A DNA stretch of 64,000 nt. Source: Eubacteriales bacterium. GTDB taxonomy: Bacteria > Bacillota > Clostridia > Lachnospirales > Lachnospiraceae. Positions within the stretch are counted from its first letter, which is position 1; each line of letters opens with the position of its first letter. The notes under the pieces are model-generated. The model searched no databases and was not told the DNA's origin. It saw only the letters and a program-made list of their open reading frames with translations. Shown piece by piece: positions 18,672 to 35,956 of this stretch. A program made the translations under genes and the position numbers. The DNA is taken from contig JAUNPS010000001.1 in assembly GCA_030536575.1 (NCBI GenBank), positions 89,585 through 153,584 of the forward strand, written 5' to 3'.

Positions 18672-21600
18672 TCAGAGCCGCCCCTCCAGCGTGTTCAAAT
18701 ATGCATCAATCTCCTGCAAATTCTCCCGCCATCCCTCCACCTGCTCATCCCGCACAATCTCCACGCTGCCTCCCTGAATCTCTCCATTTCCTCCCGCCTC
18801 ATCTTCCATACAGCCCTCAATCCGCAGATAATCCTCCCGCAGCGCCTGCAGCACCTCTTCCTGCGGCTTCCACCTTCCCCGGCTCTCCAACTCCAGCAGC
18901 CGCCGCGCAATCTCCTCCGCCGCATACGGATTCTGCCCCAAAAGCCACTCCCGCATTTCCTCCTGATTCACATACGTCTCCGCCAACTGATCCAGAACCG
19001 CATCAGAAACGCAGTCATTCATACACTTCGCCTCAAAAACCCGCTGCATCCGGCTCATCATCTCGCCCGCTCCCCGGTATCCCTCCTCACGCGTCCGATC
19101 CTGCCAGACCGGATTCAGCAGCGTCTGCCGAATATCCCGCTCCACGCTCTCTCCCAGCGCCAGCGTCTCCATCGGCTGATTTTTCTCACTGTAACTCTGA
19201 TACTGGCGGATCTCCTTCTTCCCAATCATCTTCGCCGCCAGCCGGAACCCTCCCTGCACCTGTACCCCAAAACCGCAGGACAGCGAATCATTCCTCCTGG
19301 AAGAAGACAAATCACAGCTCAAATCAATCTTCTTCACATTCTGGACAAACTCCCGGATACTGCTCCTCCCGTTCAGTCCGTTTCCATACGCAAACGCGGA
19401 TGCCTGGATAAAATACCGGGCCAGGTCTTCGTCCGTTTCCCAGGCGCTGGCCTTCAGCGCCAGATCCAGCCCAGCCCCATACGTTCCCGGCGGGTCGCCG
19501 AAAATCCGGATCGTACCGGCTCGCTTCCCCAGCTCGCCGCATTCACGCTCCATTTCATGAGTATTCGCCAAAATGTAGTTCTCCTCCTCGCTCTCCGGCA
19601 GGGAAGCTGCCAACAGCACCGCTTCGTCCATCAGATTCACCGCATCCGGCCAGGTATCCCGCATCACGCCGGAAATCCGCAGCGTCACATCGATCCTGGG
19701 CCGCCCCAGTTCGGAAACGGGGATTTCCTTCAGCCCAATCACCCGGCCCTGCCGATCCCAGACCGGACGCACCCCCAGCAAATACAGGAACTGGGAGAGC
19801 TGCTCTCCATGGGTACGGGCAATGTCCAGCGAAATCATATTCATTGCAATCTTCTTCGGATAGGCTCCCGCATCTTTCAAATATGTCTCCAAAAGCTGTT
19901 TCGCCAGCTCGCTTCCCCGCTCATAAGCCACCGGGTCCGGAATCTTATCCATGTTCATCTGATAAAAATTCCGCCCCGTCGGCAAAATCCTCCGCCCGTT
20001 TTCATCCGGCATCCCGCCTTCCGAAGACGGAATAAAGCCGCCGTTCAGCCCGTGAACCAGCAGATCCATCTCCTGTTTTGTGCACAGCAAAAGCCGGTAC
20101 ACCCGCCGGATATCCTCTCCCAGCAGTCCTCCCGTGTCCGTACTGCGCAGACATTCTTCGACAACTTCCCGCACCCGCCGCTGATAATCAAAGGCGCTTT
20201 CGTTCGCCCTGCGCTCCAATACCTGATCTGCCAGAAGCAGCTCTGTCAGATACCCAAGAATCTCTTCCTCATCCGGATTTTCTCCAAACACATGGAGCCT
20301 GGAAAGCTTCCCGCTTTCCGCGCTGGCCAGCAGTGCATCCCGCACAAGTGAAATCCCTTCCTCGAAAGTTTCCGCCGAATTCAATAATCCGCGCATGGCT
20401 TCCTTTTCTTCCAGCAGCTCCAAAATCCGTTCCCGAAAGGCTGTCCCCTGTCCGTTTTTCATCTGCACGGCTTCTTCATACGCCTGAATCTGATCCATCA
20501 GCCGCAGTTCCTCCGCGTCAAAGCCGCCGCTGCTGGCCGGATAATATCCAAACAAAACCGCATTCGCCCTGCGCTTCGCAATGCATCCTTCCGAAGTCAC
20601 TCCGATATGATACGGATAAAGGTTCGGCATGCTTCCCAGCACGGCATACGGCCAGCACTCCTGCCCCAGGCCGCTTCCCTTCCCCGGAAGATATTCCAGG
20701 CTTCCGTCCGTTCCGATATGAACCACGGCATGCACCTGCCGCACCCGTTCCAGATAGCGGTACGTGGCAATATACTGATGAGTGGGCGGGCAATTCGGAT
20801 CATGGAGAATCCGGCAGACCTCCCCGGTACATTTCGCACCATAGCACCCGCGCTTCGGCTGCACCAGCAGACAGACATTGCCAAAAGACAGTCCGGTAAT
20901 AATCAGGTCGCCGCCCTGCACCATGCCTTCTCCGGGCGGATCCCCCCATGCTTTCCGGAGGGCTTCCCGCATCCGCGGGGTAAATTCCTGAAAATACTCC
21001 TGATATTCGCCCTGGGCGGACATCCGGTACAAACAGCCTCCGCTTTGCAGGATATCTTCCACGCTTGTCCAGCGAAAATCCGAGAACGCCTTTTTCTCCA
21101 GAATCAATTTCAGCAGCGCCTTGCCGTCCTCCGGAATCTGTTCCACCTGATATCCTTCTTTCTTCAGGCGCTTCAGAATCGCCACCGCACTTTCCAGCGC
21201 ATCCAGCCCAAACGCCTTCCCAATCGTCGCCTCAACGCCTGCGCAGACAGAATTGTGTAAAATAAGCGCTATCTTTTTACGGCTGTTGGGCGTCGTCCGA
21301 AGGGCAATCCAGCTTTTTACCCGCCTGGCAAGCCCCTTTATGCTCTCTGGTTGTAAAACAATCTTCCGCTCCCTGGGGCTTCGCAGCGCAATCAGCACCG
21401 GTTCCGTCATGCCCGCCATCTCCGGATTCAAATAAGCCGACTGCATTTCCTCCGCCAGCGGATTCGTCTCTTCCTCCCACGTCTCGGTGGTGACGAAATA
21501 CGTGCTGACCGGATGGAAGACCGGAACATCGTATTTGCAGAACATCCGGACTGAATTCTCCGACGCGCTCAGCCCGTCCGCCCCCTTAATCAAATGCATC

Positions 21601-22343
21601 TGGAACTGCACCAGCCCCTGAATCAGCACCTTCCCATCCTGACAGAAATAGTGCTCCACAAGCTCCTCAAACCCATAGCTGCGGATCGTCTCCCCGGTTT
21701 CCCCGGCGGAAAAGACCGGAATCACACCGATTCCCAGTTCGTGAAATGCTCCAATCAATGCTTCCTCTGCCTGAAGGGTCTGGCTGACCCAGGAACTCCG
21801 ATGGCTCATGATTCCCACATACGTCTCATAGCCCGCTTCCTCTTTTTCCAAAAAAGCCGTTACATCCTGGTAAACCTCTCCGGTACGAACTCCATAAATC
21901 CCGTCAAAGGGCAGCCTGCACGGCTCCTCCGGAATCGGCGCCCCCTCCTCCAAAAACAGCCAGTGCCGGATATAGGAAACGCAGCGGCGCAGATTTTCAT
22001 CACCGCCATACAACAGATATTCATTGATCGTCGTAATAAATTCTTTTTTTACATTTCCCTGATTCAGCAGGAGCGCCTCCGAGCCGACGGGAACCAGCAG
22101 CATTTCTCCCTGCAAGGCGGTCAGAAATTCTTCCTGCGTTTTATTCATTCCACGGCTTCCAAACAAAAGGGCTACCTGCTCTTCCCGACACCAGGTATCC
22201 AGCTTTTCCAAAAACTCCTGCCTCTTTTGCTCGGTATCCAGCATGTCCCACTGGTAAATGCATAAGCTGACCTTCTGCTCCTGAGCGGCCTCTTCCCAGC
22301 CGCTTCCCTGCCCGCAAAACAAATCCAAAAGTATCAGTCTCAT
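18672..22343 (-). CDS. CobN-like chelatase large subunit, divergent paralogue
   Basis: A 1223-aa protein of the CobN/ChlH/BchH family, the tetrapyrrole-binding subunit of ATP-dependent metal chelatases. The conserved metal-site segment reads HIGTDGSLEYLPGK near residue 539, where the upstream paralogue and the family have HVGTHG-x-x-E. The second histidine is thus Asp here. Other family features remain: YLLGVRPVW, ELGRPRIDVTLRISG and GDPPGTYGAG. The start at 22343 overlaps the stop of the first cobN (ATGA) with AAGGAGA upstream; longer starts are rejected. It may be a second chelatase for a different tetrapyrrole or metal, or a partner of the first copy. Confidence 0.9.
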   Translation of the reverse strand: MRLILLDLFCGQGSGWEEAAQEQKVSLCIYQWDMLDTEQKRQEFLEKLDTWCREEQVALLFGSRGMNKTQEEFLTALQGEMLLVPVGSEALLLNQGNVKKEFITTINEYLLYGGDENLRRCVSYIRHWLFLEEGAPIPEEPCRLPFDGIYGVRTGEVYQDVTAFLEKEEAGYETYVGIMSHRSSWVSQTLQAEEALIGAFHELGIGVIPVFSAGETGETIRSYGFEELVEHYFCQDGKVLIQGLVQFQMHLIKGADGLSASENSVRMFCKYDVPVFHPVSTYFVTTETWEEETNPLAEEMQSAYLNPEMAGMTEPVLIALRSPRERKIVLQPESIKGLARRVKSWIALRTTPNSRKKIALILHNSVCAGVEATIGKAFGLDALESAVAILKRLKKEGYQVEQIPEDGKALLKLILEKKAFSDFRWTSVEDILQSGGCLYRMSAQGEYQEYFQEFTPRMREALRKAWGDPPGEGMVQGGDLIITGLSFGNVCLLVQPKRGCYGAKCTGEVCRILHDPNCPPTHQYIATYRYLERVRQVHAVVHIGTDGSLEYLPGKGSGLGQECWPYAVLGSMPNLYPYHIGVTSEGCIAKRRANAVLFGYYPASSGGFDAEELRLMDQIQAYEEAVQMKNGQGTAFRERILELLEEKEAMRGLLNSAETFEEGISLVRDALLASAESGKLSRLHVFGENPDEEEILGYLTELLLADQVLERRANESAFDYQRRVREVVEECLRSTDTGGLLGEDIRRVYRLLLCTKQEMDLLVHGLNGGFIPSSEGGMPDENGRRILPTGRNFYQMNMDKIPDPVAYERGSELAKQLLETYLKDAGAYPKKIAMNMISLDIARTHGEQLSQFLYLLGVRPVWDRQGRVIGLKEIPVSELGRPRIDVTLRISGVMRDTWPDAVNLMDEAVLLAASLPESEEENYILANTHEMERECGELGKRAGTIRIFGDPPGTYGAGLDLALKASAWETDEDLARYFIQASAFAYGNGLNGRSSIREFVQNVKKIDLSCDLSSSRRNDSLSCGFGVQVQGGFRLAAKMIGKKEIRQYQSYSEKNQPMETLALGESVERDIRQTLLNPVWQDRTREEGYRGAGEMMSRMQRVFEAKCMNDCVSDAVLDQLAETYVNQEEMREWLLGQNPYAAEEIARRLLELESRGRWKPQEEVLQALREDYLRIEGCMEDEAGGNGEIQGGSVEIVRDEQVEGWRENLQEIDAYLNTLEGRL

Positions 22344-25300
22344 TCTTCGTCTCCTTCGAAATCCCCTTCCATTTCCAGGTAAATTTCCTGCAGTTTCTCC
22401 AGCTTCTCCTCCGAGGCGTTCCACATGTTCCGCTGCGCCGCCTCCAGCAGCCGCTCGCTCATCGCATGCAGCGCCCAGGGATTTACCTCTTTAATCCAGT
22501 CGTGAAGCTCCTGGTTATTCAGATATTGCTCAAACACATCGTCGTACATATAGTCCTCGACCACATCGCTGGTCGCGTCCCAGCCGAACAAAATGTCCAC
22601 CATAACCGAAAATTCCTGCGCACCTTTGAATCCGTGCTGCTTCATTCCCTCAATCCACCGGGGATTGTTGATCCGCGCCCGCATAATCCGGGCCGTCTCC
22701 TGAGCCACATTGCGCGTCACTACGTGCTCCGTATCCGCCGCATTGGTGGAATAGGAGGCCGGGGCACTCCCTTTCTGAGACTTGACCGCGGCAATCAGCC
22801 CGCCGTGATAATTATAGAAATCGTCGCTGTCCAGCATGTCCGCCTCGCAGGAAGAAATATTCTTCACCGTCACATCACACCCTGTCAGCCGATTCGCGAA
22901 CAAATCCTGCATCTTTTCCCCGTGATACCGTCTGGAATAGCCGTGGCCGCTCCAGGTAATGTACGCCTTCCCTAAGTCGTCGCTGGTCTCCCATTTCCGG
23001 CTGTTGACCATGATATCGACGCCTGCCCCATAGTTTCCGGGCGGGCATCCGAAAATCCGCACAGCCGCCCGCTCGTAGGCCTGCTCCCGATCCAGCCCGC
23101 TCTTCAGGAACGTCTCCATGTCCGCTTCCACATGCTTGCGGATGAAATTTTCCTCCGGCCCTTCCTCCAGCCCGGCGGCTAAGTTGACCGCTTCATCCAC
23201 CAATTCGATCAGATTCGGGAAGGTATCCCGGAACAGGCCGCTGATGCGAAGCGTCACATCGATTCTGGGACGTCCCAGCTCCTCTGTCGGGATCACTTCC
23301 AACCCGATCACCCGATCCGTCTGCCCCAGCCAGACCGGACGCACGCCATACAGATACAGGATTTCTGCAATGTCGTCGCCGCCCGTCTTCATCGTCTCCC
23401 CGGAATAAACCACAATCGCAATCTCCTCCGGAACCGCTCCCGTCTCCTTCTCATGGGTCTTCAAGAGCTGGTCAGCCAGCCTTTTGCCTGTCTCCCAGGC
23501 CGCGCGGCTGGGAACCTCGGTGGGATCGATCGTGTAAAAATTCCGCCCGGTCGGCAGGATGTGCGCGTTCCCGCGGCTGGGCGCGCCGGAAGGCCCTTTT
23601 CGCACAAATTTCCCGTTCAGGCCGTCCAGCACCGACTGAATTTCATCCGCTGTGTCCATCAGGCGCGGATACACTTCGTCGGCCACGAACCGGAGACACT
23701 GTTCCAGTTGGTCACTCCGCGCCGGATTCAGCCCCTCCTGTTCGGAAATCTCCTGAATCATTCCTGCAATTTCTGTCTTCGCATACCCTTTTTCTTCCCA
23801 GCATGCAAACAGCTTCCGGCCAATCTCATCCGCCTGCTCCAGCTTCATGGCGTTCGTGCGGCCCGTTTCGTCGCACGCTTCCGGATACTCCAGCAAAGAT
23901 TCCAGATCATAGCCCAGCATCCGGCAAATCCCCTGGCGCAGAGACGGTACATTGCCATTTTTCACCCGCACCAGAAGCCGCAGAAGATTCGTCAGGCGCT
24001 CGCCTTTTGGCGGCTGGCCAAACACGTGCAGGCCGTCCCGGATCTCCGAAGCCTTGATTTCGCTGACCCACAGATGCAGCTTTTCGGCCGTCTCCTCAAA
24101 GGATTCCGTAAAATCCTGCCAGGTAAGTCCCAGATCCCGCGTCAGATTCATGCGCTCTGCCAGTTCCCGGATTTCTTCCTGCAATTCGGCCGTCTTGCTG
24201 TTGCCGTTCTGTTTCGCATGGTAATACTTTGCCAGCCGCTCATCGATCACCGCAATGTCCCCATAAGCTCCTCCTTCCCGCATGGATGGGATCAGATGAT
24301 CCACAATGCAGGCGGCCGTCCGGCGCTTGGCCTGGGCTCCCTCACCCGGCACATCAATGATATACGGATAAATGTTTGGCAGGTTCCCAATAGCCGCGTC
24401 CGGATAGCAGTTCCGGGACAGCCCGATTTCCTTCCCCGGAAGCCACTCGATGGTGCCGTGGGTACCGACGTGAATCACCGCATTGGCCCCAAATTCGTAT
24501 TCCAGGTAGCGGTAAAAGGCCAGATATTGGTAGGGACATACCAGGTCGGTAGAGTGATAGCATTCCTCCGCTTTCTCTTCCTGCGCCCGGGGCGGCTGCA
24601 AGCCGATCAGAATATTTCCATTTTTAATGCACGGAACCAGAATCTGATCTCCCACTGCCATAAAGTCGCCCGGCGCTTCGCCCCAGTCCCGCAAAAGCTC
24701 CCTGCGGATCTTTTCCGGCAGCGCCGTGAACCAGCTCTGCCACTCCTGGGGCCCCGCCGTTGCCTCCGCCCGCGCAAGCAGTTCCTCGGCCGAACGGAAA
24801 CGCCCGTCATTCGTCAGCCCCTTCGTAATCCGGTCAATAATCTCCTGCCCGTCCCGGAACGCATACTCTGTGCGGATGCCCTGTCCTTCCATGGCGCACA
24901 CCAGATGGTAAACGGATTCCGGCGTGTCCAGCCCGTAGGCGCAGCCGATCATGTCCGCCCGGGGCGGCATATTGTGCAGAATAATCGCAACCTTTTTCTC
25001 AGACTGGGGGATTCTGGAAAGGTTCGCCCAGTTCTTCGCCAGACGGACAAGCTTCTCCGCCCGATCCCGGACCAGCACCGGACGTTCCTTCACGCCGTAA
25101 GGGGTTTTCACCTGTTCCGTGCAGGTCAGAGGAACGCCGATGAGCTGGCCGTCAAATTCCGCCGTGTAAACATTGCCCAGATACATCGCATCCATCCCCC
25201 GCACCGACTCCTGCCACTGCTGATACGTATAATTCGTCGTCAGCGCCTGGATGGCCGGAACGCCCAGAATCTCAAAAATACTGTCCTGTACCTGCTCCAT

Positions 25301-26095
25301 CCCACAACCCGGCGCGGAAAGTACGCTGAGGGAATGTCCGGCTGCCACGATCATTGCCTGGGGAACGCTGCGCCCCTCCCAGATCAGGTACTTCCGGAGG
25401 GAAGCCCGCAGGCCGCCGTAAGAAACGTCCGTCGACGGCATCACATTGGAATAGAGCACCAGCGGTGTACAGCCAAAATCCCGGATGATTGCCATCAATT
25501 GATCCAGGTATTCCGTTTCACCAGTTTGAATGGTATGGAAATGGATCAGCACGCCGATGACCGGCTTCGGATCCTGGCTGACCGCTTCCAGATAGGCTTC
25601 GTCCGTCAGCCCTTCGTCCTTTCCATAATACCCGTCCCAGCGCGGGAACACGACCGGTTCATACGTACAGGGATAACCGGCCACCTTCTGAAACAGATAA
25701 CGCAGAAAATTCCGCAGATTTTCTTTCCCGCCTGCTTCCAGGTAACTCAACAGGGTAGTCACCACCTGGGCCGGAAGTTTGCATTGCTTCGTCATCTCTT
25801 CCATTTCGGATTCAATGGTCGAGCGGAAGAAATACGGTTTTTTTCCTTCGAAATACTCCCGAAATTTTAAGTAGCTCCGGAAATAGGCCATACTTCCATG
25901 AAAATTGAAGATGACAAAGTCCGCCTGCTTCACGCTTTCCAGGCTTTCCCTGCAAATATCTTCGTCCCGGTCGATCTCCGCTGTGTCATAGACGTCCATG
26001 AAAATATCGCTTATTTCCCTTCCTGCCTCCTCGAACGCTTCCCGAAAATCGCAGACAGGCCGTTTTCCTTCAAAAATTGCCGCAATTTTAAACAT
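22340..26095 (-). CDS. cobN: CobN-like cobaltochelatase large subunit
   Basis: A 1251-aa CobN/ChlH-family protein. It has the canonical HVGTHGTIEWLPGK near residue 539, ILPTGRNFYTIDPTEVPSRAAWE near residue 855, LYGVRPVW, ELGRPRIDVTLRISGLFRDTFP and FGCPPGNYGAG. With the ChlI/ChlD-like proteins of the same operon it would form a three-part ATP-driven chelatase. The classic aerobic role is cobalt insertion into hydrogenobyrinate diamide, but no ring-synthesis genes are nearby and CobN relatives acting on other tetrapyrroles exist. Metal and substrate are therefore open. An intrinsic terminator lies between btuF and this gene. Confidence 0.92.
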   Translation of the reverse strand: MFKIAAIFEGKRPVCDFREAFEEAGREISDIFMDVYDTAEIDRDEDICRESLESVKQADFVIFNFHGSMAYFRSYLKFREYFEGKKPYFFRSTIESEMEEMTKQCKLPAQVVTTLLSYLEAGGKENLRNFLRYLFQKVAGYPCTYEPVVFPRWDGYYGKDEGLTDEAYLEAVSQDPKPVIGVLIHFHTIQTGETEYLDQLMAIIRDFGCTPLVLYSNVMPSTDVSYGGLRASLRKYLIWEGRSVPQAMIVAAGHSLSVLSAPGCGMEQVQDSIFEILGVPAIQALTTNYTYQQWQESVRGMDAMYLGNVYTAEFDGQLIGVPLTCTEQVKTPYGVKERPVLVRDRAEKLVRLAKNWANLSRIPQSEKKVAIILHNMPPRADMIGCAYGLDTPESVYHLVCAMEGQGIRTEYAFRDGQEIIDRITKGLTNDGRFRSAEELLARAEATAGPQEWQSWFTALPEKIRRELLRDWGEAPGDFMAVGDQILVPCIKNGNILIGLQPPRAQEEKAEECYHSTDLVCPYQYLAFYRYLEYEFGANAVIHVGTHGTIEWLPGKEIGLSRNCYPDAAIGNLPNIYPYIIDVPGEGAQAKRRTAACIVDHLIPSMREGGAYGDIAVIDERLAKYYHAKQNGNSKTAELQEEIRELAERMNLTRDLGLTWQDFTESFEETAEKLHLWVSEIKASEIRDGLHVFGQPPKGERLTNLLRLLVRVKNGNVPSLRQGICRMLGYDLESLLEYPEACDETGRTNAMKLEQADEIGRKLFACWEEKGYAKTEIAGMIQEISEQEGLNPARSDQLEQCLRFVADEVYPRLMDTADEIQSVLDGLNGKFVRKGPSGAPSRGNAHILPTGRNFYTIDPTEVPSRAAWETGKRLADQLLKTHEKETGAVPEEIAIVVYSGETMKTGGDDIAEILYLYGVRPVWLGQTDRVIGLEVIPTEELGRPRIDVTLRISGLFRDTFPNLIELVDEAVNLAAGLEEGPEENFIRKHVEADMETFLKSGLDREQAYERAAVRIFGCPPGNYGAGVDIMVNSRKWETSDDLGKAYITWSGHGYSRRYHGEKMQDLFANRLTGCDVTVKNISSCEADMLDSDDFYNYHGGLIAAVKSQKGSAPASYSTNAADTEHVVTRNVAQETARIMRARINNPRWIEGMKQHGFKGAQEFSVMVDILFGWDATSDVVEDYMYDDVFEQYLNNQELHDWIKEVNPWALHAMSERLLEAAQRNMWNASEEKLEKLQEIYLEMEGDFEGDEE

Positions 26096-26132
26096 ACCTC
26101 TTCTCCTTTCCTGCCGTGCTGACCCGCAGGTG

Positions 26133-26171: not shown

Positions 26172-26182
26172 CCATGCTTTAT

Positions 26183-27313
26183 TTATTCTGCAAGGCTTAC
26201 GTAATAGGTCAGTTCCCGATCCGGGAATACGTCCGGATAGATCGCTGCTGCCAGGTCAGCGGCCATCACGTCGGTCTGGTCAATACCAAGCCAGAACGGG
26301 TCGCCGTACTGATAAACGCATCCGTTCTCATAGGCTGCGCACTCTGTGAGCTGCGGGAATGCTTCCAGAACGCCTTCCATTCCGTTGCAGTAAGCCGGGG
26401 TCGACGTATAAATGATCACGTCCGCATCCTGCACGCAGTCAAAGGCTGCTTCCAGTGTCAGAGCACCTTCTGTCTGTCCACTGAACGCGTTGACGCCGCC
26501 CATATCAGCCAGCATCGTGCCAACCCAGCTCGTGTCGGAAGTCGCGTATACCGTTCCGTCATAAACGGAGAAAATAGCCACTTTCTTCTGTTCCTGGCCT
26601 TCCAGAGCCTCTTTTACCGCGTCTACGTTTGCCTGTGCTTCCTGCATCACGGCGTCAACCTGCTCGTCCGCGTCGAAGAAGGTCAGCAGGAAACGCATCC
26701 ATTCCATACGAGCCATGTAATTAGATTCCATGTACTCATTGTCAACGGCATAGTTAATGCCCAGTTCCTCAAGTTTGGCAATAACGCTGGACTGCGGGCT
26801 GGAACCCGTGTATACAAATACAACGTCCGGTTCCAGAGACTGGATCAGCTCATAGTCCGGATCGCCCATTCCGCCGCCGACATCCACGATGTCGCCGCTT
26901 TCCATGGCTTCCTGAATCGCCGGAATCTCCGCCCAGCTGTCCGCGGAACCGTTTACGCCGCCGATGGCGCTGATGACCGCGTCGTCATCCACCGCGCGGA
27001 ATGCGCAGACCTGCGTAGAGGAAAGGAATACCGCATTATCCACCGGAGTCCGGATCACAATGCTGTCCGCGTATTCTTCCGGAACCGCTTCCAGCTCCTT
27101 CGGGACTAAAATCAGCTCCCGGTCTTCGCCGTCGATGACGCGTTTGATCCCGTCTTCCAGCAGTTCGATGGAAAAATCCGGATCGTAGAGGTTTTCTACG
27201 ACGCCCGTGGCTTCCTCTGCCTGTACGATAACCGCATTGTTCGGCAAGCTGCCAAGAGACAGGCCTGCTGCCAGCACGCCGGCCAGCATCCATGTTACCA
27301 TTCTTTTTTTCAT
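26183..27313 (-). CDS. btuF: BtuF/FecB-type substrate-binding protein
   Basis: A 376-aa secreted binding protein. Signal peptide 1-32 ending VQAEE; no lipobox is visible. The body follows the two-lobed helical-backbone type (VFLSSTQVCAFRAVDDD, GDPDYELIQSLEPDVVFVY, VIYTSTPAYC). This class binds corrinoids, heme or siderophores. Its place next to CbiZ and behind a cobalamin riboswitch argues for corrinoids. The frame extends to 27658, but AAGGAGAG and a signal peptide fix the start at 27313. Confidence 0.87.
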   Translation of the reverse strand: MKKRMVTWMLAGVLAAGLSLGSLPNNAVIVQAEEATGVVENLYDPDFSIELLEDGIKRVIDGEDRELILVPKELEAVPEEYADSIVIRTPVDNAVFLSSTQVCAFRAVDDDAVISAIGGVNGSADSWAEIPAIQEAMESGDIVDVGGGMGDPDYELIQSLEPDVVFVYTGSSPQSSVIAKLEELGINYAVDNEYMESNYMARMEWMRFLLTFFDADEQVDAVMQEAQANVDAVKEALEGQEQKKVAIFSVYDGTVYATSDTSWVGTMLADMGGVNAFSGQTEGALTLEAAFDCVQDADVIIYTSTPAYCNGMEGVLEAFPQLTECAAYENGCVYQYGDPFWLGIDQTDVMAADLAAAIYPDVFPDRELTYYVSLAE

Positions 27314-27357
27314 GATGTTACTCTCCTTTGGTTTTCTATTTCTGAGCCTTTCGGCAT

Positions 27358-28443
27358 TCAGATCGTTATACATTTGACGAGGGTTTCTTTCAGATCCTGG
27401 ATCATCCAGGCAAGGGTTTCCTCCGCCCCGACGGCCGGTTCCGGCTGCTCCCGGTGCTGTCCCAGCATAATTCCGGTAAGCTTCGCGCCCATCTGCTTCG
27501 CCTCGTCCGGCGTAACCATTCCCCACATCAGCTGATCCAGCAAATGTGCATATAAGGAAACGCTCACCACCAGATCGCCCCGGCTGGCGGCCTGATACCA
27601 GCATTCGGAAAACTCCGCCCGCGTCAGTCCCTCCGAAGTACGGCAGAACTCCTCCCACAGGGTCTGTTCCGTAATGCCGAAGCGGTCAACCCGCTGATCT
27701 ACGTAATGCTGTCTTTCGGGGCAAAGGCCGCTCTGTTTGTTCAGCGCCTCTTTCACGGCTGCTTTTACGGCTTTACCGATCAGTTCGCCGAGCTTGCTGT
27801 GCTTTCCGGCATTGGTCAGACAGACGTCCGAATCGGCATTGCAGACCACAATCGTGCCGTCGGTGCCGGAACCTGTAGCCAGCCCCATGGAATAACGGCT
27901 GGGGGCCAACAGCTCCTGAATGGCCGCAGTCTTGGCCTCCGTGCAGGTAACAACTGCCCGTGTCAGCGCCCCCTTGCTCAAATCCGTATTGATAAACAGC
28001 ATAATATTAATGGTTCCCTGCTTCACTTCCTGGGCCTTTCCGGCCACTTCATGCCAGGATGCCGGGTCGCCCACGCGCCCCCCGTTTACTTCGATGCCTC
28101 CGGTCACCACCGCAGTCACCACGGTCTCTTTGAATTCCTCGGTACAGATTGCCACATTTTCCATACTGGCCGCCGTGGACATGCCGGCCGCCGTCTGGGG
28201 ATCCAGCCCGATTTCCTCTGCAATCAGGGCCATATGTTCTTCGTAAGTGGGCGCACGCAGGGTACATGCCATCCCCGCGCCGGGATTCCCGTCATTGTTA
28301 AAAACAGAGGTCAAATCCTCCCGGTATCCGCCGTTTAAGGGGCAGGTACTGAGCACCCGCCGTTTGCCGGTAAAGGGCACTACGACACATTTGCGGTAGC
28401 GGTATACCCGATCGCCCACCGGCAGCGTATGAATCTGCATCAT
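27358..28443 (-). CDS. cbiZ: Adenosylcobinamide amidohydrolase CbiZ
   Basis: A 361-aa CbiZ-family protein. CbiZ cleaves the amide between the corrin ring and the aminopropanol arm, giving cobyric acid for corrinoid salvage and remodelling. Family features: STAASMENVAI near residue 93, VVTGGIEVNGGRVGDPA near residue 113, GTINIMLFINTDLSKGALTRA near residue 142 and GLATGSGTDGTIVV near residue 187. The C-terminal 120 residues (from about 240) go beyond the core and are mostly helical. It overlaps the TIM-barrel gene before it (ATGA). Confidence 0.9.
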   Translation of the reverse strand: MMQIHTLPVGDRVYRYRKCVVVPFTGKRRVLSTCPLNGGYREDLTSVFNNDGNPGAGMACTLRAPTYEEHMALIAEEIGLDPQTAAGMSTAASMENVAICTEEFKETVVTAVVTGGIEVNGGRVGDPASWHEVAGKAQEVKQGTINIMLFINTDLSKGALTRAVVTCTEAKTAAIQELLAPSRYSMGLATGSGTDGTIVVCNADSDVCLTNAGKHSKLGELIGKAVKAAVKEALNKQSGLCPERQHYVDQRVDRFGITEQTLWEEFCRTSEGLTRAEFSECWYQAASRGDLVVSVSLYAHLLDQLMWGMVTPDEAKQMGAKLTGIMLGQHREQPEPAVGAEETLAWMIQDLKETLVKCITI

Positions 28444-29420
28444 TCCATCCCTCCTTGGTTCAGTGCTTCCAGTTGTTCCCGCAAAGCCCGGCTGTGTTCC
28501 TCCCGGCCGCAGGAAATCAGTTCAAAGGTTAAAAATTTCGGATGAATCCGGCGGATCAGCCCTGCCGCCTGGGGCGCGGTAAACGGCCGGTGCCGGTCGA
28601 TCTGGAAAATATGCGGATATACCTGGCTGAAACGCTCCCAGTATGTTCCGGTAAGCTTCGGCGGGTTCGCAATCACGCTCTCCACATATTCCCCTGAAAG
28701 GGACTGCTGCAGATGAATGCCTTTGATCCATCCGCACAATTCGCCATGTTCATCGAGCATCCGTTCAATGTAGGAGACGGCCTCTTCCTGTGTGCGCAGG
28801 CTGCGGTTCGTGTGCAGCAAATGCCCGGTGTCCAGCATAATCCCTTTTTTCTCATAGGAAATGCCGTAAAGCAGCCGCTCCGTGATTTCCGGCCGGGTCA
28901 TCGTAAACCCGCTCCACCAGAGGTTTTCCACCAGAAAATAAAAGGAATACGGCTTATCCGAAAGCAATGCGCGGATGATCTCGCAGGCGGCGTCACAGAC
29001 CTCTTCATCCGTGTGCTTCTGCCGGTAGGTAAAACACTCTTCCAGACTGCATTCGGACACATGGAAGACCACGTACCGGACGCCCTGGGCCTGGGCAATT
29101 TCCAGCTCCTGTTCCCATCTGTGCAGCATCGCATCCCGTTCCAGGCCCCCATAAACCGTGCGTACCGTCTCCCGGTCGCCATACTCCGCAAGCAGCGCAT
29201 CCCAGTCTTCCCGCCAGAAATCCAGCCAGCTTGAAAAGTAGCTCAGATGAATTCCCTGCACGTCTTCCGCCGGAACAATCGGCGGAATCTCTTCTGCGCC
29301 GCAGAGCATCAGTTCCAATCCGTCGATTCCCTTGTCTTTATAAAATGCCCGCAAATCGGCCCGATCCTGATAGCGATCCAAATCCTGATTTGAAGCGGTG
29401 ATATTCATCGATGTAATCAT
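28440..29420 (-). CDS. Sugar-phosphate isomerase/epimerase-like TIM-barrel protein
   Basis: A 326-aa protein of the xylose-isomerase-like TIM-barrel superfamily. Metal-ligand-like positions are visible: the Glu in FLVENLWW, the Asp/His of MLDTGHLLHTN, the His in KGIHLQQS and the Glu in FELISCG. The enzymatic role is unknown. It overlaps both neighbours by ATGA junctions (start 29420 with the radical SAM stop, end 28440 with the cbiZ start), so it is tightly part of the operon. A role in handling the ribose or linker part of the corrinoid nucleotide loop is possible but only inferred. Confidence 0.82.
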   Translation of the reverse strand: MITSMNITASNQDLDRYQDRADLRAFYKDKGIDGLELMLCGAEEIPPIVPAEDVQGIHLSYFSSWLDFWREDWDALLAEYGDRETVRTVYGGLERDAMLHRWEQELEIAQAQGVRYVVFHVSECSLEECFTYRQKHTDEEVCDAACEIIRALLSDKPYSFYFLVENLWWSGFTMTRPEITERLLYGISYEKKGIMLDTGHLLHTNRSLRTQEEAVSYIERMLDEHGELCGWIKGIHLQQSLSGEYVESVIANPPKLTGTYWERFSQVYPHIFQIDRHRPFTAPQAAGLIRRIHPKFLTFELISCGREEHSRALREQLEALNQGGME

Positions 29421-30433
29421 GTCGCATCCCTTTCTTTTTCCGCCAGCGCAAAAGCCGTTTTCAGCAATACGCAGTCCAAATCTCCCCCGCCGCGAAGCCC
29501 TCTGGAAGGACATCCCCCGGGACAGAATGGCCGATAACGGCAGGCTGTACAGCTTTCGGCTCTCTGCGCAGAAACCGAAACCGCCGGAGCATCCTCACTT
29601 CGCGGCTGAAACGTCTCCACGGTTCCCATCCGGTACTCCCCCAGCAGCAGCGAGCCGCAGGGGTACAGTGCACCGTCCGGCAAAACCACAAGGGAACGGC
29701 CACAGGAGGCGTAGCAGTAGTCCCCTCCGCCCCCGTCTGCCGTCAGGCGCTTTTTCGCCTGCTCGATTTCCCGGATCTGAATCTTTCTTCCGGAAAGCTG
29801 CTCAAGCTCCAGGCTGCGCCGCTGCATGGCTTCAAGCGCCTCCGCCAGAAGCTCCGGTTCCGCCGCCGAAACGCGGCTTTCTTCCCGTCCGCGCCCTGCT
29901 CTGCGCAGAAGATCCAGGCCGATGCCGCCCACATTGCCCAGATAAAAGGCAAAGTCCACAAGTTTTGGCAGCTCTTTCACATTCGCTGCCGTCACGACCG
30001 CATTCAGCCCGATCGTGATCTGCTGTTCGGCCAGAAATCCGATCCCCTGCAAGGCATTCTTCGTCCGGCCGCGGGTCAGGCGGTTGACACTTGGAATCCC
30101 GTCCAGGCTGACACCCGTTGAAATCCCATACCGTTTCAGCTTCGCGGCAATTGTACGGTCGATTAACGTCCCGTTCGTCTGCAATTGAAACACCGCATCG
30201 ATCCCCTGTTCCCGCACATACGCAATGATCTGCTCTGCAAGGCCAAAGTTCAGCAGCGGCTCCCCTCCGGCGAACTGGATTTTCAGCGGGTATTCCCGCA
30301 ATGTGTCCAGAATCTTCCGCGCCGTCTCAAAACGCATATCTTCCGCAGCCGTATTTTCACTGGCATAGCAGTAGGTACACTGCAGGTTACAGCGGCCGGT
30401 CAGCCACAGAACCAGCAGAAGCCGCTTACGCAT
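29417..30433 (-). CDS. Radical SAM/SPASM protein of the chelatase operon
   Basis: A 338-aa radical SAM enzyme. C15, C19 and C22 (RCNLQCTYC) bind the SAM cluster; FAGGEPLLN is the GGE motif. The C-terminal SPASM-like region has [17 protein letters not shown] and [18 protein letters not shown], enough cysteines for one or two further Fe-S clusters. Such enzymes mostly modify peptides or proteins. No precursor peptide is seen nearby, so the target may be one of the operon proteins or a tetrapyrrole. The start at 30433 overlaps the ChlI-like gene by eight bases; an upstream ATG at 30466 is less likely. Confidence 0.88.
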
Positions 30434-31454
30434 GTTCCCGCAGGATCTGCTCGATCGCCGCCTCATCCAACACGCCGTTTTCGAACGGTGTGCGGCGCAT
30501 CCGGTGGGGCAGTACCAGCACGGCGGCGTTTTTCAGGTCTTCCCGGCTCACCTTCGTCCGGCCCTCAAAAGCGGCAAGCGTCATCGCCGTCTTAATCATC
30601 GTGATATCCGCCCGGTGCCCGTCCACGCCCAGCGTCAGGGACAGGGCCGCCGCCATCAGCAGAATTTCATTCTCATAGCGGACGCTTCCCAGCCGCTCTT
30701 TCGCCTGTAAAATCTGCCCCGCTAACCGTTGTTGTTCCGGCTCGTACTGCCTGGCGAACTGCTCCGGATTTTCCTCAAATTCCAGCCTGCGGCGCACCAC
30801 CTCGGCGCGCTGCTCTTTGCTGTTTTCCCCGCACACGTCCACCACCAGCCCGAAGCGGTCTAAAAGCTGGGGCCGCAGGTCGCCTTCCTCCGGGTTCATG
30901 GTTCCCACCAGGGTAAACCGGGCCGGATGGCTGTAGGAAATCCCCTCCCGTTCCACGGTATTGACGCCCATGGCCGCGGAATCCAGCAGGACGTCCACCA
31001 CATGGTCGTCGAGGAGGTTTACTTCGTCCACATAGAGAATGTTGCGGTTGGCCTGGGCCAGAATCCCGCATTCGAATTTCTTCGTCCCATGGGAAATGGC
31101 ATATTCAATGTCCAGGGTGCCGACTACCCGGTCTTCGGTAGCGCTGACCGGAAGGTCGATTACCTGCATTTTCCCTTCCGTCCGCTCCAACGGCTCGCCC
31201 GCCTCCAGATGCGCTTCGCACTCCGGGCAGAAGTCCGTTCCGTCCGGATCACAGCCAAACCGGCAGCCTTTTACCTTCTGAAGCGTCGGCATCAGGGCCG
31301 CCAGCGCCCGGACGGCGGTGGATTTGGCCGTTCCCTTCTCGCCCCGGATCAGGACGCCGCCCAGTCTGGGATTGATGATATTTAAAATCAGAGCCTGTTT
31401 CATCCGTTCCTGCCCGACAATCGCGGTAAACGGATACTGTATGTTTTCTTTCAT
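30426..31454 (-). CDS. Magnesium/cobalt chelatase ATPase subunit I (ChlI/BchI-like)
   Basis: A 342-aa AAA+ ATPase. Walker [10 protein letters not shown] at 38-46, a cysteine cluster C64/C68/C76/C79 in an insert that could hold zinc, Walker B-like [10 protein letters not shown] and the sensor segment [23 protein letters not shown]. It would form the hexameric motor with the ChlD-like protein and drive metal transfer by a CobN subunit. It starts at an ATGA overlap with the ChlD-like gene. Confidence 0.92.
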
Positions 31455-33388
31455 TCGTCAGCCCGCCTTTTCTTCCTTAAAATCCCTGTATTCTCTTTCA
31501 CGGCCATGCTCACCGCCGAGACGATGGCTCCTGCCCGCAGCTCCGACAGTTGATAGACCGTTGCGTCCATTTCCCGCCCCAGCTTTTCCGCCAGCCGCAG
31601 TTTGATAAAATCCTGCTCCACGTCGATGATCACCGTTTTAATGTGGTCGGCCGTCAGGGCCTTCCCTTCTTCCACCGCGTCTGCAAAGGGGTTTTTGCTG
31701 CGTCCGGCCGTCGCGCGCCCATCCGACACCAGTACAACTACCGGTAATAAATCCTTTTCTCTGCGTCTGGCCGCCTGCACCAGCGTATGCGCCGCTTCCA
31801 GCCCGGCATAGAGGGGCGTTTTTCCTCCTGTGGAAAGGGTTTCCAGCTTTTTCGCCGCCAAATCCACGCTGCGGGTCATTCCCAGCACCAATTCCGCCTG
31901 GTTTCGCCGGAAGGTAATCATAGCCACTTTATCCCGTTTCTGGTAGGCGTCTCCCAGCATCGAAAGAATCGCCCCTTTCACCGCGGCCATCCGCCTGCCG
32001 ACCCCCATAGAGCCAGAGGCATCCACGACGAACACGATAAAGTTCCCGGTTCGCTTTTCCCGCACCTTCGTGCGGATATCTTCCTTCTCGATCACCAGCG
32101 CCAGATCTTCCCGCCTCCGGGTTTTCTGATAAGGGGCCGCCGCCCGCAGGGTCGCGTCAAAGGCCAGATCCAGGTCTTCCCGGCGGTTCATGGTGCTCTT
32201 CACATAGCGCCCCTGAAGGGAGCTGGTCTTGACCAGGCTGCGCCTGCCGCTTCCCCGGCGCACCAGAGTTTTGGACTTTTCTTCCAGCCAGCGCCCCACC
32301 GCAAAGGTTTCGCCGATTTCCTCGGTCTTCTCTTTCTCTTTTCCGGGCGCGGACTGGCCGGAATCGGAACCGCTTTCTTCCGGTTTGGGGTCCTCCTCAG
32401 ATTCTTTCGTCTGCTGTTCTTCCGGTGTCTTTTCCGGTTCGGAGGGCGGTTCGGTTTCCCGGGTTTCTTCCGTCGGCTCTTCCGGCGCTTCTTCCCTTTG
32501 GTCTTCTTCCGGCGGCGTCTCCGTCTGCTGGGGCGCAGGCTGAGCATCCCGCATTCGGTGCGGGAGCGCGTAACGCGCCGCCTCCGTGATGGCCTCTTTA
32601 TTCACGGAAGAGGAGCCGTTCCACGCACAGATGGCTCTTGCCGTCTCAATGACAGCGATTTCTCCCCGGCTTCCCTGGCAGTTCGCGTTCTGCGCAAGTT
32701 GGGCCGCCAGCGTCAGGGCCGCATCCGACACGCCGATAGACGAAAGGCGCTCCTTAGCCTTTTGGATCCGCCCGGCAAGCTGCCGCTCTTCCTCCTGATA
32801 TTCTTCCGCAAAAGCCTGGGAATCCGCTTCAAACGCAATCCTGCGCCGCACAATCTCGCACCGCAGCAGCGGATTTTCCTCCGCCGTCACATCCACATAA
32901 AGCCCAAAGCGATCCAGAAGCTGGCTGCGCAGTCCGCTCTCCTCCGGGTTCATGCTTCCAACCAGCACAAACCGGCACGGATAGCTGGCGGAAATTCCTT
33001 CCCGCTCCACCCGGCAGACGCCGTCTCCGGCGGCCTCCACCAAAATTTTTGTCAGATTATCGCTCAGTAAATTGATCTCATCGACATACAGGACATTTTG
33101 ATCCGCCTCATATAGGATGCCTTTTTCCAGTTTCCGGACGCCTCGGCGAATCGCCTCTTCAAAATCAATGGCTCCTACCAGGCGGTCTTCCGTGGCATTT
33201 AACGGCAGTTCGATGATTTTCTTCCCACTGATCGCCCCGGAGGCGCGCACCAGCGTGGATTTTGCGGTTCCTTTCTGGCCGCTGATCAGAACGCCGCCAA
33301 TCTGAGGATTGATAAAATTCCAGATCAGCGCGTTTTTAATTTGCTCCTGGCCCAGAACCGCGGAAAATGGAAAAATTGGTCGTTTCAT
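31451..33388 (-). CDS. Chelatase ATPase/VWA subunit (ChlD/CobT-like)
   Basis: A 645-aa protein with three parts: an N-terminal AAA+ domain (Walker [10 protein letters not shown] near 37-45, [17 protein letters not shown]), an acidic Pro/Glu/Thr-rich linker at about 285-370 and a C-terminal VWA domain with an intact MIDAS (VVDASGSMG near residue 455, then TGGKTPL and VSDGRAT). This is the ChlD/BchD arrangement, but the AAA Walker A is intact where it is often lost. The ATG at 33388 is chosen; one at 33418 in frame is possible. Confidence 0.9.
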
Positions 33389-33392
33389 GTCG

Positions 33393-34592
33393 TCACCCCG
33401 CCGTTTCCAGCTTTTCAAATAATTCGGTTACGCTGGAAACGGTGCATACATTTTCTGCTTTATTTCCGTACAATGCTTCGCATTCTTCCCGGCTGCGCAC
33501 TGACCAGATCTGACGCCCGGCGGCCAGGGCCTCCTGCAGAAGGGTCAGGTTCTCCCGGTTTTCCGTGCCAACCGGAAAGCCGCTGTCTACAATATAGCGG
33601 GCCTTCTGCATCAGCACCTTCGCCCGTCTGGCATTTTCCGGACAAATCCGTTCAAAGGGTTTTTCGGATACCACTTCCCCGCAGATGCTTTTGGCCACCT
33701 GATAGTCCGCGTCGTTTTCATGCAGGATGCCGGAGGTCAGGCCATAGCCTTTGCGGGAGAGCGCGCGGTATAAGCGGATGCCGCTGGAATTGCCGCCGGT
33801 TACAAAAATGTCGTTCCCTTCCCGCCCTTTTAATTCGATTGCCCCAAAAAGCTCGCTGTACTGCGCTCCCCGAATTTCATAGAGCTGCTGGATAACCCCA
33901 TCGCGCACCACGTCTTCCGGCGTTCCCTGAGACACAATTTTCCCATTATGTACCAATAGTACAATCTGGCAGCCCTTGAGCGCCAGGTCAATGTCGTGCA
34001 GGGACAAAATGCAGGTAATGCCTTTTTCATTCGCCAGTTTCTGCAGGACACGGACGACTTCCACTTTATGTTTAATATCCAGATGGCTTGTCGGTTCATC
34101 CAGGATAATCAACTCCGGCTCCTGTACCAGCGCCCGCGCAATCATCACTTTCTGCTTCTCGCCGTCGCTCAGTTCGCTGAAAAAGCGCTCCCGGAAGGCG
34201 GACGCGCCCACGGTTTCCAGGGATTCGTCGATAATTTTCTGGTCTTCCGGCGTCAGCTTTCCCAAAAAATTCGTATAAGGCGTGCGCCCCATCGCAATCA
34301 GTTCGTACACGGTGGTCATCGACGGCGCCACCTGATCGGTCAGCACCAGCGACATTTTCCGGGCAATGTCTTTCTTTTTCATCTTTTTCAGGTCGATGCC
34401 TTCCACCTGGACGGCGCCGCTCACCGGAGCCAAAAGGCCGGACAGGGTGCGCAGGATCGTACTTTTTCCCGCGCCGTTGGGGCCAAGCAGGCAGATAACC
34501 TGTCCGCGCATGGCGCGAAGTTCCACATCTGAGATCACGGCCCGGTTATGATAGCCTACATCCAGGTTTTCTGTACGGATAATCGGTTCCAT
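33393..34592 (-). CDS. btuD: Corrinoid ABC transporter ATPase (BtuD-like) with C-terminal extension
   Basis: A 399-aa protein. Residues 1-255 are a FecCD/BtuCD-type ATPase with Walker A GPNGAGKST (36-44), signature LSDGEKQKV (about 141-149) and LIILDEPTSHLDI. Residues from about 258 form an additional domain of 140 residues (GNDIFVTGGNSS, GYGLTSGILHENDADY, YIVDSGFPVGTENREN) that is not needed for transport and may bind a ligand. It starts at the base after the btuC stop. Confidence 0.9.
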   Translation of the reverse strand: MEPIIRTENLDVGYHNRAVISDVELRAMRGQVICLLGPNGAGKSTILRTLSGLLAPVSGAVQVEGIDLKKMKKKDIARKMSLVLTDQVAPSMTTVYELIAMGRTPYTNFLGKLTPEDQKIIDESLETVGASAFRERFFSELSDGEKQKVMIARALVQEPELIILDEPTSHLDIKHKVEVVRVLQKLANEKGITCILSLHDIDLALKGCQIVLLVHNGKIVSQGTPEDVVRDGVIQQLYEIRGAQYSELFGAIELKGREGNDIFVTGGNSSGIRLYRALSRKGYGLTSGILHENDADYQVAKSICGEVVSEKPFERICPENARRAKVLMQKARYIVDSGFPVGTENRENLTLLQEALAAGRQIWSVRSREECEALYGNKAENVCTVSSVTELFEKLETAG

Positions 34593-35618
34593 TTACATTT
34601 CCCCTCTCTTTTGTTTTACCAGCAAATACACGACAATCGGCGCGCCGATCAGGGAGGTCATGGCTCCCAGCGGCAGTTCGGTGGGGGACATCAAAAGCCG
34701 TGCCCCCATGTCGCACAGGCCAGCCATCACGGCTCCGTAAATGCAGGAAGCCGGAATGACGATACGGTTATCCGAGGTTTTGAACAGACAGCGCACGATG
34801 TGCGGCACCGCCAAACCCACGAAAGAAATGGAACCGGCGAATGCGGTCACGACCGCGGTCAGCACGCTGGATACCAGAACCATCAAAAAGCGGAAAGGCC
34901 GGATAGAGATTCCCATGGACTGGGCATATTTTTCGCCCAACAGCATGGCGTTCAGCGGTTTGCTCATCAAAAAGGCCAGAAACAGGAATGGAATCGTGAC
35001 CAGATACAAAATTTTCACGTGGCTCCAGGTAAATCCGGCGAAGCTTCCCATCGTCCAGATGGAAAAGGCGGCGATTTTTTCCCGGTCGGCGATTACGGTC
35101 AGGACGCTGGTTCCGGCGCTGCACACGTAGCCCACCATCATGCCGATGATTAAAAGTGTCGTAATGCTTTTCACCTTCTGGGAGGCGAAGATAACGATCA
35201 CCATAACCAGCATAGCGCCGAGAAACGCGCCCACGAAAAGACCCATAGAGGTCATGGTTTTCATCCCGAAAGTATAGCCTCCCAGGATAATCAGTGCCAG
35301 AACGAGAGTCGAACCGGACGAAATTCCGAGGATGTAGGGTTCGACGATGGGGTTTCCAAAAAAGACCTGAAGCAGGATACCGGAAGTGGCAAGTGCTGCG
35401 CCTCCGGCCAGGGCGGCCAATGTCCGTGGCAGACGGATATTCAAAATGATCGAATAGTGGGAACGGTTTACCAGTTCTGGTTCTGTGAAGCATTGAAGAA
35501 TTTCCGGCAGGGTAATCTGGACGGAACCCAGGGAAATATTCAGCAAAAAGATGGCCAGCAAGGCCAGGAGTCCAATGGTAAAAAGGAGGCTGTAGCGTAA
35601 GGTCGTTTTGTGCGTCAT
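34593..35618 (-). CDS. btuC: Corrinoid ABC transporter permease (BtuC/FecCD family)
   Basis: A 341-aa permease with about ten helices. FecCD family features: LPRTLAALAGGAALATSGILLQ near residue 65, NPIVEPYILGISSGS near residue 90 and GSISFVGLAVPHIVR near residue 250. The ATG at 35618 follows AGGAGAACACACAAGA; the frame is open further upstream through the riboswitch terminator, which is not coding. It is the first gene after the cobalamin riboswitch. Confidence 0.93.
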   Translation of the reverse strand: MTHKTTLRYSLLFTIGLLALLAIFLLNISLGSVQITLPEILQCFTEPELVNRSHYSIILNIRLPRTLAALAGGAALATSGILLQVFFGNPIVEPYILGISSGSTLVLALIILGGYTFGMKTMTSMGLFVGAFLGAMLVMVIVIFASQKVKSITTLLIIGMMVGYVCSAGTSVLTVIADREKIAAFSIWTMGSFAGFTWSHVKILYLVTIPFLFLAFLMSKPLNAMLLGEKYAQSMGISIRPFRFLMVLVSSVLTAVVTAFAGSISFVGLAVPHIVRCLFKTSDNRIVIPASCIYGAVMAGLCDMGARLLMSPTELPLGAMTSLIGAPIVVYLLVKQKRGEM

Positions 35619-35644
35619 TCTTGTGTGTTCTCCTGAAAATAAAA

Positions 35645-35678
35645 AACATCTGATGGAACTTCGCTCCCAAAAGATGTT
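35645..35678 (-). terminator. Terminator of the btuC cobalamin riboswitch
   Basis: AACATCT (35645-35651) and AGATGTT (35672-35678) pair around a purine-rich loop; the minus strand continues with six T. It lies between the riboswitch aptamer and btuC and is the likely expression platform, stopping transcription when corrinoid is bound. Confidence 0.8.
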
Positions 35679-35783
35679 TAAAATACAATTTGAATACACA
35701 GCTTCTCACCGCTGTGCAGCCTGCATTCTTATCTGTTCGCCAGAGTTCCGCAGCTCCCAGATAACACCCGTTGGAAACGAGCA

Positions 35784-35956
35784 AAATACAGGTAAGTATT
35801 CCGACTGATAGCTGCTGAGCTCTCAGCATATGCGCGCCTTCCCGGAAAACTCCAGTGGCTGGGAACATCCCTGCGCATAAATAAGCTAAACACGGCAACG
35901 GCCTTGTCCAGGATTCTCACCTGGTTCCTTTTTTCTGTGCTTGCACACCTGCATTT
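35784..35956 (-). promoter_or_regulatory. Cobalamin riboswitch upstream of the btuC-cobN operon
   Basis: On the minus strand the closing stem P1 is AAATGCAGGT with ACCTGTATTT. Between them come the conserved blocks GGAACCAGGTGAGAATCCTGG, ACAAGGCCGTTGCCGTG, CAGCCACTGGAG, CCGGGAAGGC and the B12-box equivalent AGTCGGAATACTTACCTG. Their order matches the cobalamin riboswitch family. The downstream terminator makes it a transcriptional OFF switch. Confidence 0.88.

Follow-up and report, generated by a model that had tools for sequence, protein, structure and literature searches.

The closest described counterpart of the locus studied here is operon-2 of Dehalobacter restrictus, which combines a cobalamin riboswitch with a Btu-type transporter, two CbiZ proteins, CobN and Mg-chelatase subunits, and which shows synteny to a part of the Acetobacterium woodii genome (PMC4285132). 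The proteins of operon-2 rose on average 46-fold at low B12, and the passages of that paper on the operon name no function for the chelatase other than uptake and remodelling. Its main text, taken without the supplements, mentions 'CobN' once and 'radical SAM' never. We analysed 64,000 nucleotides (nt; hereafter the window) of a Lachnospiraceae genome (Eubacteriales bacterium, GCA_030536575.1, contig JAUNPS010000001.1, positions 89,585 to 153,584), in which a single operon likewise brings together a cobalamin riboswitch, a Btu-type transporter, CbiZ, CobN and Mg-chelatase-type subunits. The layout is a variant of an operon that has already been described. What is new is the tie between a radical S-adenosylmethionine (SAM) protein and CobN, the presence of CobN subunits from unlike clades, and the loss of a cleft histidine in one of them, CobN2. 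No title or abstract opening that we found mentions a comparable second CobN or a connection of this sort between CobN and a radical SAM protein, with most full texts unopened.

CobN and ChlH, together with accessory subunits, insert metal using adenosine triphosphate (ATP), and the heme dechelatase HmuS has a CobN-like fold capable of metal removal that is independent of ATP (PMC12583661). The same source calls the use of CobN-type homologs in archaea unclear. A late, ATP-driven cobaltochelatase in cobalt-early organisms is a puzzle in print for haloarchaea, where CobN and a ChlID protein occur in a cobalt-early organism and a salvage role is offered as speculation; in the cobalt-early route the intermediates need cobalt (PMC8305020). 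For the window we tentatively propose a B12-repressed corrinoid salvage operon in which CobN1, ChlI and ChlD would insert cobalt into imported corrinoids.

The operon and its two unlike CobN subunits

The operon consists of ten minus-strand genes behind the riboswitch, in the order btuC, btuD, chlD, chlI, radical SAM, TIM barrel, cbiZ, btuF, cobN1 and cobN2, the last ending at 18672 (Table 1). A sequence-only reading, made from the letters of the window without database searches, had proposed one riboswitch followed by these ten genes with several ATGA overlaps. RF00174 and the Pfam and NCBIfam profiles confirmed the order, and four such overlaps were found (chlD/chlI, radical SAM/TIM barrel, TIM barrel/cbiZ and cobN1/cobN2, with the cobN2 start ATG at 22343). 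With revised start codons, the intergenic gaps are at most 87 nt. The complete three-part chelatase of that reading was also recovered: the class I subunits CobN, ChlI and ChlD are present with their motifs, namely Walker motifs in ChlI and ChlD (Walker A and B in ChlI) and a MIDAS motif in ChlD. The second cobN had been listed without comment, although it is a deep paralog that lacks a key histidine.

In a tree of 76 CobN sequences, CobN1 and CobN2 fell into separate deep clades. The CobN2 clade comprises the sequences of the window and of five other genomes (G505, G595, G471, G848 and G1088), with a support of 1.0. CobN1 scored 713 bits against solved CobN and 378 bits against HmuS. It keeps the cleft histidine (His546, codon 24458-24460), which aligns with the histidine of Mt CobN that comes after a lysine; the cleft histidine is numbered His-522 in Mt CobN and His-538 in HmuS (PMC12583661). 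CobN2 of the window has Asp546 in its place (codon 20706-20708). Across 77 CobN rows, many of them related, this position holds 72 His, 3 Gly, 1 Asp and 1 gap. Within the CobN2 clade the residue is Asp in the window, Gly in G505, G595 and G471, and His in G848 and G1088. Loss of the histidine as a trait of the entire clade was rejected because G848 and G1088 retain it, and the tree suggests that it was lost twice independently. A second conserved histidine (CobN1 position 1154) is also missing in CobN2 of the window, G505, G595 and G471, with G848 and G1088 outside this comparison. Both ChlH-type glutamates are retained in CobN1 and CobN2. We take these to be E625 and E660 of ChlH; their positions were taken from mutant chains in the structure matches.

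The radical SAM protein keeps the CxxxCxxC motif and the SPASM cysteines in all 19 compared rows. The genome sets used here are samples, and all counts describe those samples. Members of this radical SAM family were found in 15 of 299 phylum genomes (E 1e-30, at most seven candidates scored per genome). All 15 genomes also have CobN, on the same contig and within about 18 kb of the radical SAM gene (co-occurrence, Fisher p 2e-17, uncorrected for relatedness and calculated with an inferred number of 30 CobN genomes within the 299). The predicted model (predicted local distance difference test, pLDDT, 86.9) is nearest among solved folds to anaerobic sulfatase maturase (anSME) and peptide-modifying enzymes. 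This likeness of folds would suit an enzyme acting on peptides or proteins no less than one acting on corrins. The tetrapyrrole enzymes AhbC, AhbD and NirJ were among the sequence matches, all under cut-off, and the protein failed the cut-off of every NCBIfam model among the best 25 of 78 matched. It scored 112.9 with the model of the ranthipeptide maturase PapB (NF047865; cut-off 340). A role as peptide maturase was rejected on these cut-offs and because the radical SAM gene overlaps both neighbours, so that a precursor peptide gene would not fit next to it (peptides elsewhere were not searched for).

The TIM barrel protein gave a predicted model with pLDDT 93.3 that matched the folds of endonuclease IV and ketose 3-epimerase with template modelling (TM) scores of about 0.5-0.6. 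Neither this protein nor CbiZ had any match in a PDB sequence search at E 0.01. A CobN-specific role of the TIM barrel was rejected in general, as the regions of 20 of the 28 other homologs in the order contained no CobN or radical SAM match; in 7 of those 20 regions that were scanned, no cobalamin riboswitch was found. A homolog in G1088, however, is flanked by two cobalamin riboswitches and lies upstream of btuF. A second copy in the own genome (contig C95, L046 9532-10539) is 43% identical and sits in a stretch with no CobN match or cobalamin riboswitch.

Occurrence of the module and of ring synthesis

Five other class genomes (G505, G595, G575, G766 and G471) share a large part of the operon. 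Names of neighbouring genes rest on profiles, or on inspection by eye where stated. G505 and G595 contain btuC, btuD with its C-terminal extension, cbiZ, btuF, cobN1, chlD, chlI, radical SAM and cobN2, and G575 has the same set with a single CobN found. The module of G766 is interrupted by contig ends. The TIM barrel is present in none of the five stretches. In G471 (L126 16252-17175) only N-terminal pieces of cobN1 were seen and the stretch had no radical SAM match; cobN2, chlD, chlI, cbiZ and btuCD remain. In four further phylum genomes (G848, G997, G1021 and G1167), a CobN1-type gene and a CobN of the second clade lie close to chlI, chlD and radical SAM; for G1021 and G1167 the CobN1 type was assigned from 41-42% identity instead of tree position. 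Both CobN are also present in G1088, along with chlI, cbiZ, btuFCD and a TIM barrel, and the radical SAM match in that genome covers just 66 residues. A DrrA/DrrB-like ATP-binding cassette (ABC) pair of the ABC-2 type occurs in G505 and, judged from matches or sizes of open reading frames (ORFs), in most of the other modules retrieved, and is absent from the window operon. CbiC directly follows cobN2 in G505 and G595; upstream in G505 are CbiJ, CbiQ, an ATPase and CbiM. In two lineages the module is accompanied by neighbouring genes for import of cobalt or nickel/cobalt.

A cobalamin riboswitch was found at 13 of the 20 scanned CobN loci (own, G505, G595, G575, G600, G635, G848, G1088, G1007, G1167, G967, G900 and L083). 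A pattern scan with single proteins gave 33 loci, mostly archaeal, which were used for alignment and for L083. This last locus (L083 8489-23561), from a metagenome-assembled genome of Syntrophobacterales, has a radical SAM gene paired with a cobN gene, the two being separated by a cobalamin riboswitch. Nearby are btuCD and the beginning of another CobN, and, by eye, two TonB receptors and two binding proteins.

CobN (PF02514) occurs in 1 of 61 relatives, namely the own genome alone. Counting the own genome each time, it is present in 10 of 391 genomes of the class (CobN1 query, E 1e-30) and 43 of 398 genomes of the phylum (CobN2 query). The idea that such genomes might lack ring synthesis was not supported. 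CbiD was found in all ten CobN genomes of the class and in 39 of the 42 other CobN genomes of the phylum, or 49 of 52 in total. It is also common outside CobN genomes: regardless of CobN, 129 of the 299 sampled phylum genomes have it, comprising 27 of 30 CobN genomes and 102 of 269 others (Fisher p 4e-8, again uncorrected and with the inferred 30). CbiK was found in all nine other CobN genomes of the class, in one of them under cut-off. In 30 of the 42 phylum CobN genomes that were tested for CbiK, 21 had a match at E 0.001, of which 12 passed the cut-off and three were full-length; the remaining short matches could be CbiX-type.

The own genome is a 4.81 Mb draft of 100 contigs, 90.7% complete with 3.1% contamination. 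The sequence-only reading had no ring synthesis genes in view. Within the window this stands for the 30 profiled proteins, which do not include every ORF, but such genes are present elsewhere in the genome. Contig C38 carries one same-strand cobalt-early cluster in the order cbiD, cbiL, cbiF, cbiG, cbiH, a cbiJ-E-T fusion, cbiA, cbiB, an aminotransferase, cbiP and cbiC, with profile support for CbiD and four TP_methylase domains only and the remaining names given by eye. Two CbiK homologs lie on contigs C47 and C97, the latter between a riboswitch and a second btuFCD. The cell should therefore be able to make the ring without CobN, and the chelatase of the window is extra. A salvage-only genome was rejected on the presence of these genes, and CobN is firmly dispensable for synthesis in the own genome and in the class, a conclusion that may not extend to part of the phylum. 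That reading had also named a synthesis locus using these proteins for normal cobalt insertion as what would overturn it: a synthesis locus does exist, but it is cobalt-early with CbiK and should not need CobN. The genome does not show a cobalt-late (aerobic) route in place of cobalt-early genes: CbiD and CbiK were found by profile and CbiG by eye, with CobG, CobS and CobT not searched for. A misbinned contig is unlikely, because the tetranucleotide profiles of six own stretches correlated at 0.935-0.972 with the operon and its flanks, against at most 0.856 for 14 stretches of other genomes, and because CobN occurs with CbiD also in single-contig genomes such as G505, G595, G967, G1021, G1088 and G1167. 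Ahead of cbiD on C38 lies an AdoCbl-II riboswitch (L007 17399-18505) that is borderline, with 36.7 bits for a threshold of 36.5, beside genes that by eye resemble the microcompartment proteins EutP and EutS.

Control elements, import genes and neighbouring metal uptake

The arrangement of aptamer, hairpin with T-run and btuC is as expected from a riboswitch that acts as an off-switch. The hairpin did not appear in the output of the consensus scan, and its z-score is weak. The promoter-like site is weak as well, since the scan of 35500-36200 gave 2 sites against a chance expectation of 0.9. No sign of a recent foreign island was seen: the guanine-plus-cytosine (GC) content is 0.562 in the operon and 0.528 in the flanks, with a profile correlation of 0.971, although CobN is patchy (in 1 of the 61 relatives). 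An isochorismatase-family hydrolase (17894-18598) on the same strand starts 73 nt past cobN2, beyond a GC-rich hairpin, and could be an eleventh gene of the operon. The best NCBIfam match of the BtuF-type protein is IsdE (40.3 bits, cut-off 298.65). This protein has a signal-like start, and because its first 40 residues contain no cysteine, no lipoprotein anchor is evident; the copy of G1088 differs in this respect.

Directly upstream of the chelatase operon lies a Ni/Co-type importer operon under a second cobalamin riboswitch, which the sequence-only reading did not mention. Its permeases passed the 'nickel' models Opp2B (403.8 bits) and Opp2C (346.3 bits), while its substrate-binding protein and ATPases stayed under all cut-offs among the matches listed. 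B12-controlled metal uptake thus appears to adjoin the chelatase operon. An AstE/AspA-like hydrolase follows the importer on the same strand (region 37410-45411). Divergent from the importer operon is a heavy-metal P-type ATPase of 1053 residues with three HMA stretches (45805-48966).

Table 1. Features of the chelatase operon and the adjoining importer operon, in window positions
Feature	Position	Strand	Evidence
Second cobalamin riboswitch	45230-45411	minus	RF00174, 113 bits; stronger than the operon's own
Ni/Co-type ABC importer (substrate-binding protein, two permeases, two ATPases) under second riboswitch	39586-44897	minus	profiles
Promoter-like site TTGACT-17-TAGAAT, just upstream of riboswitch	35977-36005	minus	consensus scan, 10/12 matches
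Cobalamin riboswitch aptamer	35774-35967	minus	Rfam RF00174, 72.5 bits (gathering score 31.5), E 6e-16
Terminator-like hairpin, 8+5 pairs then T-run, between aptamer and btuC	35679-35644	minus	sequence and RNA fold, z-score -1.1
btuC-type permease	34593-35618	minus	PF01032, 276.7 bits; ATG 35618, ribosome-binding-like AGGAGA upstream
btuD-type ATPase with C-terminal extension	33393-34592	minus	PF00005; best NCBIfam match corrinoid ABC ATPase PRK09536, below cut-off
ChlD-type chelatase subunit, AAA+ and VWA domains, P-loop and MIDAS motifs	31451-33388	minus	profiles, motif reading
ChlI-type AAA+ chelatase subunit	30426-31454	minus	profiles, motif reading
Radical SAM/SPASM protein	29417-30433	minus	PF04055
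Xylose-isomerase/endonuclease IV-like TIM barrel	28440-29420	minus	PF01261, 32.6 bits (cut-off 31.1)
CbiZ adenosylcobinamide amidohydrolase with C-terminal extension	27358-28443	minus	PF01955, 202.1 bits, residues 24-230 of 361
BtuF-type binding protein	26183-27313	minus	PF01497, 67.3 bits; start ATG 27313
CobN1, large chelatase subunit	22340-26095	minus	TIGR02257, 928.4 bits (cut-off 822.05)
CobN2, divergent CobN paralog	18672-22343	minus	PF02514, 924.3 bits; TIGR02257, 570.7 bits, under cut-off 822.05

Proposed cobalt insertion, its alternatives and known systems

Corrinoid salvage is probably the role of the operon, because the riboswitch, the importer, CbiZ and the published induction of a related operon all point to it. 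The anatomy of the locus supports riboswitch control, BtuFCD-type import, CbiZ and the link to imported corrinoids, as the sequence-only reading had it. During cobamide shortage the riboswitch would permit transcription, as its structure suggests and as the rise in protein in the Dehalobacter relative illustrates. BtuFCD would then bring in corrinoids, judging from its family, and CbiZ would cleave the nucleotide-loop side toward cobyric acid, an activity known for its family. CobN1 and the ChlI-ChlD ATP motor may insert cobalt into imported corrinoids that carry no cobalt or another metal, with the neighbouring B12-switched nickel/cobalt-type importer as a possible metal source. CobN2, with the usual cleft histidine gone, would most likely bind, hold or strip the corrinoid instead of performing standard cobalt insertion, and the radical SAM protein might most plausibly modify or repair it. 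The operon would supplement synthesis, and the cell could also build the ring with CbiK. Taken as a whole, this account is our preferred one and remains tentative, with the doubts slightly the heavier.

Several observations weigh against it. Both motor subunits stayed under the cut-off (779.45) of TIGR02442, the putative cobaltochelatase ATPase subunit (ChlD 651.5, ChlI 498.1). No riboswitch was found at 7 of the 20 scanned CobN loci (G997, G1102, G1083, G1021, G766, G774 and G471), some of them cut short. CbiK had no match in 9 of the 30 phylum CobN genomes tested, with CbiX not searched. Metal-free corrinoids would be needed in the habitat, and among the literature matches listed they occur as a laboratory preparation only. 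Furthermore, insertion requires neither two unlike CobN, nor a radical SAM protein, nor the ABC-2 exporter of the relatives. Substrate, metal and direction are all inferred from sequence, from which the direction of metal transfer is not decidable; insertion is favoured over removal because of the ATP-driven I and D subunits and the nearby metal import.

Demetallation or metal exchange, in which one or both CobN would remove cobalt or a wrong metal from imports, either to gain cobalt or to remodel the ring before re-insertion, is possible but unlikely. HmuS offers a precedent as a CobN-fold protein that removes metal (PMC12583661), unlike CobN pairs occur in several genomes, CobN2 of the window lacks the standard cleft histidine, and the ABC-2 exporter in many relatives' modules could expel the product. 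However, HmuS is ATP-free whereas ChlI and ChlD with ATPase motifs are present here, destroying corrinoids would be odd during B12 starvation, and the nearby metal importer genes could already provide cobalt. A more elaborate version is improbable: one CobN would strip the metal, the radical SAM protein would edit or repair the ring, the other CobN with ChlI-ChlD would re-insert cobalt, and the ABC-2 proteins of the relatives would expel rejects. We keep it because CobN2, the radical SAM protein, the TIM barrel and the relatives' exporter are unexplained by plain insertion. If true, it would mean corrinoid remodelling at the level of the ring, beyond the known exchange of lower ligands.

The fit of CobN1 to the cobaltochelatase model would also suit a spare late cobaltochelatase that rescues metal-free intermediates of the own pathway that slip past CbiK. 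The frequency of CbiD in CobN genomes, CbiC right after cobN2 in two relatives and CbiJ upstream in one agree with this, but the window operon has import and CbiZ salvage genes and not ring synthesis, and cobalt-early intermediates need cobalt (PMC8305020), which makes such a rescue improbable too. We consider it doubtful, to a slightly greater degree, that CobN and the AAA+ motor bind, unload or hand over corrinoids without any metal chemistry: CobN2 apparently lost the cleft histidine in two branches yet keeps the E625/E660-matched glutamates, as if binding were kept and insertion lost, but CobN1 retains the cleft histidine and both glutamates. Heme or another porphyrin, also raised by the sequence-only reading, is very unlikely as the substrate since the operon also contains CbiZ and a cobalamin riboswitch and since CobN1 scores higher with solved CobN than with HmuS, even though BtuFCD and heme transporters form one family, BtuF has its match to IsdE (under cut-off) and HmuS sets a precedent.

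In this module the late chelatase is tied to the import of corrinoids, to one particular family of radical SAM proteins and to an additional CobN in which the standard cleft histidine is missing, and so the published puzzle becomes testable. If metal is inserted or swapped, the sharing of corrinoids among anaerobes would extend to metal-free or wrong-metal corrinoids.

Compared with class I cobaltochelatases (CobNST or CobN-ChlI-ChlD), the window likewise has a large subunit and AAA+ I and D subunits, and its CobN1 passes TIGR02257. It differs in that the genome is cobalt-early with CbiK, the chelatase stands among import and salvage genes, and the second CobN is without the cleft histidine. 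Whereas the haloarchaea have CobN with a ChlID protein, the window has separate ChlI and ChlD, two CobN, a radical SAM protein, a riboswitch and a transporter in one operon. HmuS, which is characterised by membrane helices at both ends, a methionine-rich insertion and Met/His heme ligands, does not require I and D subunits; in contrast, the window operon has ChlI, ChlD and a cobalamin riboswitch. The radical SAM protein shares the CxxxCxxC core, the SPASM cysteines and an anSME-like fold with SPASM enzymes (AnSME and PapB, and AhbC, AhbD and NirJ, which act on tetrapyrroles), but it is found with CobN and fails their cut-offs. Relative to Dehalobacter operon-2 and its A. woodii counterpart, the window operon differs in carrying a single CbiZ and a TIM barrel gene and in lacking an ABC-2 exporter.

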